Below, in pieces: positions 3,001 through 6,000 of a stretch of 64,000 bases of DNA. Origin of the DNA: Pempheris klunzingeri (taxonomy: Eukaryota > Chordata > Actinopteri > Acropomatiformes > Pempheridae); assembly GCF_042242105.1 (NCBI RefSeq), contig NC_092016.1:10864501-10928500 (forward strand). Direction: 5' to 3'. The notes beneath the pieces are model-generated. The model had not been told where the DNA came from. It saw nothing but the letters and a program-made list of their open reading frames with translations, and did no database searches. Each line of letters starts with the position of its first letter. The stretch's first letter is position 1. The position numbers and the translations under genes were made by a program.

Positions 3001-6000
3001 CTCAACAGATGTACGCATTCAACTGGATACGGAATCACCTAGAAGAGCACCCAGAAACTTCACTCCCAAAGCAAGAGGTGTATGATGAATACAAGTGAGT
3101 GTGTGACCTCACCGTGGGGTCAGGGCAGGTGAAGGGGAACAGAAGTATGCTTAATTTACAGCCGAGGTCACTAATGGGCTAATGGGTCTGTATCCAGACG
3201 CTGTCCGATGCGGAATTATGAAATATTGACTGAGCGTTTCTATCTTAACCGGCGCTGTTTTTCTAGCCTTTGTGGCACTGGTTTAGCAGCCCAGGAAACT
3301 CACAGAACGATGCATGTGCTGTAAATCATCTCATGTGATGCCGCTCAGCCAGTCAAATCTGTCAGTGAGTGAGATCCAGACATGAGAGAGATGAGAGACG
3401 GTCATCAGAGAAATAAGTGAGAGTCAGAGAAAAGCCATTTCACGTGGCGTGCTCTAAAAAGAGAAAACTGGACAGCGAAAACAGAACTTTTAATCAAGGG
3501 TGGACTCTTATGTGTTCATTTCTCCCACATGCAGTTCAAAATCAGTATGTTTCACATGTTCTGAGACTGGCTGTTATTAATAGCGGCAAAGTGAAGCGGC
3601 ATCACGAGACAAAGCACAAATCTTTTGATCAAACATACCCACTCAGCTGCGACCTGAGTGCGCAGAAAATAAATGATCTAAGAGCCCATTTTGATTGATC
3701 CACTGGAATCCTGTATTTTATTTTTGAATGTAACCCTTATTTTACTTGAAATGAGAAAAGAACATTTATTTATTATTGGACTTCAGTTTATGTTGAAACT
3801 GTTGCAGAGCGGTGTTGATTCAACTGTATGGTCATTTTGGGTCAGGGTAGGTTACATAGCAGAGGCATCATCTCTGTATAATGTAGATACAGTATGTATT
3901 ACCAGTCGTAATCTTATATTGGATTCTGGTCTCTTTCAGGAGCTATTGTGACAATCTCGGCTACAATCCACTGAGTGCAGCAGACTTTGGAAAGATCATG
4001 AAGAATGTCTTTCCCAACATGAAGGCACGTCGACTGGGCATGAGGGGCAAATCCAAATATCCTTTAATACTGATGAACATGTCAACGAAGTCTTCCCATG
4101 TCTTCCTCTGCTTGATGCTGTTAGTCGATTGTAGGCATCATAGTGGTGCCATTAAGTTGCTAAAATTTGAAGAGGCGGAATGAGTCACAAACAAGTCACA
4201 AACAAGCTACCCATCGCCCCAACTTAATGGCACATTTTCCACACAAGTATCTTTGAAATTCCAGCTTTGAATGGAATTCAAATTCTTGTTATTACTTGGA
4301 CTGTCTGTTTTATTATGACCTGATAATTTATCACCTAATGTTACTTGCACTGTAAATTCATAGGTCTGCTTTCAGCACAGTAGACAATCTGTTATGAATT
4401 TTATTCACTAAGACTAAAGGTAACTACTGTTAAAACGACAAATAATATAAATACTGTGTGGGAAGAGGTACAAGATACAAACAATGTACCACTGAGAAAT
4501 CTAACCCTCTAAAATAATGAAACATTGTAGTAATCTCAAGTTCCTAAAGACTTCTAAAATTGTGGTAAGTTCATCTTTTAAAAAACTATTGCCTGAGGGC
4601 TGTTGCAGATAGATTAAAAAAGTCAATGGTAGGAATTCATGTTACGACTGTAACTTTCTTGGGAAAGATTAGAGAGACTAAACATTTCTACATCCAGAGT
4701 CACTATGATTCAGACACCTTAACTCCTTCTCACATACTGTTATAGCGGGTTAAGGAAGAAAGCTTTTGTTCACATGCCGTCCTTACCCAACCTGGATCTG
4801 CAGAAATCTGGTGATGGGGTAAGTTACACTGCTAAAAGACGTGCAGTAAATAACTAGTTATTTTTTACTATTTAAAAGATCTGATGCTAATCCACGCCTT
4901 TCTCTCTTTTGTCTGACTGAAGTGTGAGCTGATGGAGCCGACAGGCCAGTCCCCGAGCGCTGAAGATGAAATGAGATCTGCAGCCTGTGGACTGGTGTGT
5001 GAGTGGGCCCAAAAGGTCCTGAGTCGTCAGTTTGACAACGTGGAGGATTTGGCCCGCTTCCTGCTCAATAGCCACTACATTGGTACCAAGTCCATGGCTG
5101 CACTCACTGTTATGACGGGAACACCCACAGGTGAATGTGTCCCCTGATCTGCTGCTGTAGTCATTTTACTGTCGTCTGTGTGTGTTTATGAAATTCATTA
5201 TGTACTGTATGCCATAGTTGACAGCATCAGCGTTGATGCCTTATTTGAGGAGGGAAATGTTATGTTGGAAAGGCATGAACAAATGCCTGTCAAAAATATA
5301 ATTTGTTGTTTACATTTGTAATTATTGGCCCCATGTTTGAAATACTTCTACTATTGTTCACAATACTTTCCTCGCTTATACGTGGTACTGCAAGTACAGA
5401 ACTGATGCTACTGGCCGTTTAGTTCCACTGACACTGTGTCCCTGCTAATCAGAATTCTTTGACTTTTTTTCCCTCTCTCAACAGGAATGAAGACGCCAAC
5501 TCCAGCCTCTGCCTTTGTGCCCACGGCTGAGGCAAACTCTTTCCAGCCCCAGGTGAAGACCCTGCCCTCTCCCTCTGTTGACGCAAAGCAGCAACTGCAA
5601 CGCAAGATCCAGAAGAAGCAGCAGGAGCAGAAGCTCCACTCACCCCTGCCCAGTGAAGCCCAGATCAAGAGAACAGAGGCCAGCACCCCCGGCCCCACCA
5701 TCCCCTGTGGCAGCCCTGCTCTGCTCTCCCCTCAGCCCACCATAGGCATCGTAGTAGCAGCTGTCCCCAGCCCCGTCACGGTATGTGGCAACATTTTTCC
5801 TCTAAGTGTGCTCAGTTATAAATGTGCCTAAATGTAACTTTATATTCTCACGATTCCTCTCCCAGGTACAGAGGAGCAGGCAGTTGATGACCTCACCGAG
5901 CCCTGTAGGGACAGCAGAGGGGAAAGTGTTGCCTGTGAACTTCCAAGTGGTCACTCAGTCTCTTAAACAGTCCCCCAAAACTCCACAGAATATCTCAGCT

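Follow-up and report, generated by a model that had tools for sequence, protein, structure and literature searches.

A probable U12-type AT-AC intron inside the RFX DNA-binding domain of rfx7 in Pempheris klunzingeri

The intron at positions 4057-4733 of the window (the whole stretch of 64,000 nt that was analysed) lies inside the RFX DNA-binding domain of rfx7 and, judged by its sequence, is almost certainly an AT-AC intron of the ordinary U12 type (minor, A-type). It is 677 nt long and, like all rfx7 features given here, is on the forward strand. The junction 4056/4734 proposed in the preliminary description agrees with these bounds, and the donor, branch site and terminal AC on which that proposal was based are all present. 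The 5′ splice site, ATATCCTTT (4057-4065), agrees at 9/9 positions with (A/G)UAUCCUUU, and also at 9/9 with the donor pattern that defines the class, (A/G)TATCCTTT. The putative branch site, CACCTTAAC (4715-4723), holds the complete core CCTTAAC, with the branch A at 4722, and matches TTCCTTAAC at 7/9. Against the class branch pattern TCCTTAAC, expected 10-20 nt from the 3′ end, the bases ACCTTAAC at 4716-4723 match at 7/8, and the distance from A4722 to the last intron base, 4733, is 11 nt. The 3′ splice site is CAC (4731-4733), the intron terminus reading CTCAC, and the terminal dinucleotides are therefore those of the class, AT first and AC last. The U12 consensus is given as (A/G)UAUCCUUU for the donor, UCCUUAAC for the branch and 10-20 nt from branch to end (PMC8199999), and donor and branch consensus also appear in PMC2831892 and PMC2846911. 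The lysine codon of SKY in RGKSKYCYSG is split after its second base (AA|A), which places the intron in phase 2.

What stands above chance is the co-occurrence of these signals at the junction demanded by homology, and not each signal alone. The donor word ATATCCTTT is expected 0.72 times per window, and 52 of 100 shuffles hold at least one copy. Donor-like 9-mers with at least 6/7 matches occur at 19 places over both strands, 4057 included, with 7/7 reached only at 4057. Sites resembling the 3′ end (score 7/9 or higher, CCTT and then AAC, GAC or AAT, and AC or AG at 9-14 nt) number 14 over both strands, the intron's own included; being this common, they mean little alone. When 300,000 sequences were drawn from a first-order Markov model of the intron's own composition, donor positions 3-9 arose in about 1.2e-4 of draws and an equally good branch match in a fraction of 0.042, giving a product of about 5e-6 if the two are independent, with the terminal AC not yet counted. 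The other rfx7 introns in the window are GT-AG in 6/6 cases, as is the case around introns of the U12-type AT-AC class, and their agreement with the U12 donor is limited to 1-2 of 7 positions. One of them (5131-5484) also reaches a branch score of 7/9, but there the distance is 22 nt and the CCTTAAC core is missing. These figures bear on whether the intron is instead an AT-AC intron of the major spliceosome (U2-type) whose U12-like sequence arose by chance. Such major-machine introns exist (PMC6717393, PMC8280824), 85 of them, together with related subtypes, having been analysed in PMC8280824, and the pyrimidine run TCCTTCTC precedes the final AC here. A U2-type intron would, however, have had to acquire the full U12 donor consensus, at the simulated frequency above for positions 3-9 alone, as well as a complete CCTTAAC core at 11 nt, and we consider this very unlikely.

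The placement of the U12-type intron was examined through the protein that its removal would restore. Splice pairs of the classes GT-AG, GC-AG, AT-AC, AT-AG and AT-AA were tried with donors at 3960-4699, last intron bases at 4100-4805 and a minimum intron length of about 60 nt. The frame stays open in 158 of 8,598 pairs, and a single pair (4057/4733) restores SKYCYSG. The preliminary description held that only this splice restores the peptide, which is true among pairs of these canonical classes but fails once any dinucleotides are allowed (donors 4030-4074, last bases 4700-4759), when five splits do so, namely AT-AC, TA-CA, AT-AT, TC-TA and CC-AC. Four of the five (AT-AC and three others) yield an identical mRNA. 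Since several placements give the same peptide, the exact splice sites were set by intron class, not by RNA, AT-AC being the sole common recognised class among the five. The joined protein aligns without a gap across the junction to RFX5 (PDB chain 8zjr_M, E 3.8e-49, with gaps elsewhere in the alignment) and to RFX1 (PDB chain 1dp7_P, E 1.9e-13), which at this point read SKYCYSG and SKYHYYG, respectively. The Pfam RFX domain scores 106 bits when spliced, reaching profile position 78/79, vs 91.6 bits and position 71/79 when the intron is retained. The intron does interrupt the DNA-recognition domain; counted on the alignment, its position corresponds to residue 66 of 76 in the RFX1 chain. We take this position to be the DNA-contacting wing of the RFX domain. 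A different explanation would have a nearby GT-AG or GC-AG splice as the real one, the DNA-binding domain simply differing in P. klunzingeri. The frame-open pairs do include 19 GT-AG and 20 GC-AG; none of these restores SKYCYSG, at a place where RFX5 keeps this peptide and RFX1 a related one, and such a splice is thus most improbable.

The gene was modelled as eight exons (99-132, 2329-2414, 2972-3094, 3940-4056, 4734-4818, 4923-5130, 5485-5780 and 5866-9270) separated by introns at 133-2328, 2415-2971, 3095-3939, 4057-4733, 4819-4922, 5131-5484 and 5781-5865. The exon before the AT-AC intron (3940-4056) follows the acceptor TTTCAG, aligns to the DNA-binding domains of RFX5 and RFX1 and ends with the AA of the lysine codon; the exon after it (4734-4818) completes that codon and is adjoined at its end by GTAAGT. 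Joined, the exons give a frame divisible by three whose single stop is the final TAA, with 1,450 codons before the stop (from exon lengths) and the start of the gene outside the window. That the assembly is wrong here or the gene copy broken, so that the splice goes unused, could be entertained on account of that missing first part, but with an eight-exon frame holding one stop, the terminal TAA, and with intact intron signals, it is hardly credible. The protein carries both PF02257 RFX_DNA_binding (106 bits, cut-off 27) and PF18326 RFX5_N (97.6 bits, cut-off 25), the two domains that mark an RFX transcription factor of the RFX5/RFX7 branch. Its best PDB matches are RFX5 (8zjr_M and 2kw3_A, the latter with E 4.9e-13) and RFX1 (1dp7_P). 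The name rfx7, also used in the preliminary description, was given because of the long C-terminal part, RFX7 being, as we assume, much longer than RFX5, and because of the neighbouring genes. The latter comprise Ig and fibronectin domains, Ribosomal_L24e exons and two sets of myosin-head exons, an order that presumably resembles that of human 15q21 (PRTG, RSL24D1 and MYO5 genes).

If the intron were retained, the first in-frame stop would be the TGA at 4181-4183, and the resulting protein would lose the end of the domain, a PSLPNL motif and the rest of the C-terminal protein. The PSLPNL codons (4777-4794) fit the PxLPxL pattern of ANKRA2-type docking sites, so that codons for a cofactor motif of this type sit in the exon right after the AT-AC intron. 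A title among the references of PMC11344851 gives PxLPxL as a motif recognised by ANKRA2; the same list includes a paper on the recognition of RFX7 by ANKRA2 and RFXANK, and PMC11344851 itself describes ANKRA2 as an RFX7 cofactor. From its pattern, PSLPNL may bind ANKRA2. For RNA with an unspliced minor intron, the expected fate is either nuclear retention and degradation or nonsense-mediated decay (PMC8329584).

One modelled feature counts against a plain U12-type reading. In the exon downstream, GTTAAGG (4749-4755) is perfectly complementary to the branch core CCTTAAC (4717-4723), and a hairpin is predicted in which the 3′ splice site lies in the loop and the branch site is hidden. The seven pairs of this hairpin have probabilities of 0.72-1.0 in six folding contexts of 76 to 879 nt, and the branch A an unpaired probability of 0.001-0.168. 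None of 500 synonymous recodings pairs the branch A as tightly (4660-4818 context), with GTTAAGG kept in two of them, and among 200,000 synonymous exons drawn at random the word is present in 0.67%. In stability the local fold does not stand out from shuffled sequences (z -0.59, 52/200 as good), and the complementarity of GTTAAGG and CCTTAAC was spotted post hoc, on one sequence. It is a doubtful proposition, and in our view an improbable one, that the exonic GTTAAGG might act as a switch within coding sequence, setting splicing vs retention of rfx7 by mimicking the branch pairing of U12 snRNA.

As an ordinary U12-type intron, 4057-4733 would be removed as follows. Intron definition would come from U11 recognising ATATCCTTT and from U12 pairing with CCTTAAC, by which A4722 is left as the branch point. 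U6atac, U4atac and U5, along with CENATAC, would then finish splicing to the AC at 4733, with U6atac and U5 supplying catalysis, thereby restoring the KSKY lysine codon (AA|A). Without removal, translation would halt at 4181-4183, or the RNA would stay in the nucleus or be degraded. Given the rare-class signals of the intron, the making of rfx7 protein probably depends on the minor machine, that is on U11/U12 and U4atac/U6atac, a dependence that we infer from intron class. Depletion of CENATAC in HeLa cells affected 92% of A-type minor introns vs 24% of G-type, and 0/85 major AT-AC or related introns responded (PMC8280824). By analogy with this response, an A-type minor intron such as that of rfx7 is predicted to be CENATAC-dependent, and probably is.

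The preliminary description called AT-AC introns very rare, which is so against all introns but not among human minor introns. AT-AC introns make up about 24% of minor introns in mouse and 22% in human (PMC6717393), with a second estimate for human of about 26% (PMC10639083), and 179 A-type minor introns were measured in HeLa cells (PMC8280824). This kind of intron is therefore well known, and the rfx7 intron is a clean new example of it, not a new kind, leaving existing knowledge of minor introns unchanged. Compared with the class consensus, no tested class feature differs: the donor ATATCCTTT, CCTTAAC at 10-20 nt, the AC end and a phase other than 0 are all alike. Minor introns tend to avoid phase 0 (PMC10639083), and phase 2 is in line with this. 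Points of departure from the consensus are branch positions 1-2, which read CA instead of TT, and the predicted branch-masking hairpin. The Drosophila transcription-factor gene prospero likewise has an AT-AC minor intron that affects its DNA-binding region; there a U2-type intron is nested in the U12-type one and two isoforms result (PMC8329584). The E2F family is also a transcription-factor family with minor introns, but is different from RFX and is likened to it by minor-intron presence alone (PMC6717393).

In the article texts of the open PMC literature, no joint description of RFX7 with U12 or a U12-type intron was found, nor in the same literature one of an AT-AC intron, U12-type and RFX together. 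In the papers examined that place RFX beside minor-splicing terms, the RFX passages concern RfxCas13d, RFXANK, RFX2, rfx6 and RFX4, and none of these passages concerns RFX splicing. It is likely that genome-wide lists of minor introns already hold the rfx7 intron. RFX7 is a p53-activated tumour suppressor in humans (PMC11344851), and should the intron be conserved, rfx7 would join the genes with reduced output on failure of the minor spliceosome or of CENATAC.

Further searches covered the window as a whole and collections of viral and prokaryote sequences. No family reached the gathering score in an Rfam scan of the window. A degenerate DNA pattern of the exon and donor matched 47 viral and at least 119 prokaryote stretches, and a search for RFX relatives gave 9 viral and 23 prokaryote pattern stretches, none confirmed as RFX. 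When the RFX domain was compared by tblastn (E up to 1) with the 166 listed pattern loci and the window, only the window matched, and the viral and prokaryote pattern matches are taken as chance. Within the window, U12-like words were also observed upstream of a Ribosomal_L24e exon, CACCTTAAC at 32292 and ATATCCTT at 32366. As a U12 intron this pair was rejected, the branch preceding the donor at a distance of 74 nt, and because this is the wrong order for one intron the words were taken as chance. The two sets of myosin-head exons lie at 42334-52776 and 57777-58082, with IQ and DIL domains after the first set, and are probably two tandem genes for class V myosins. In its last exon, rfx7 contains glutamine-coding CAG/CAA repeats at 8088-8161 and 8812-8842; the first has 21 units with a 96% match over 8088-8150, and the second consists of 10.3 pure CAG units.
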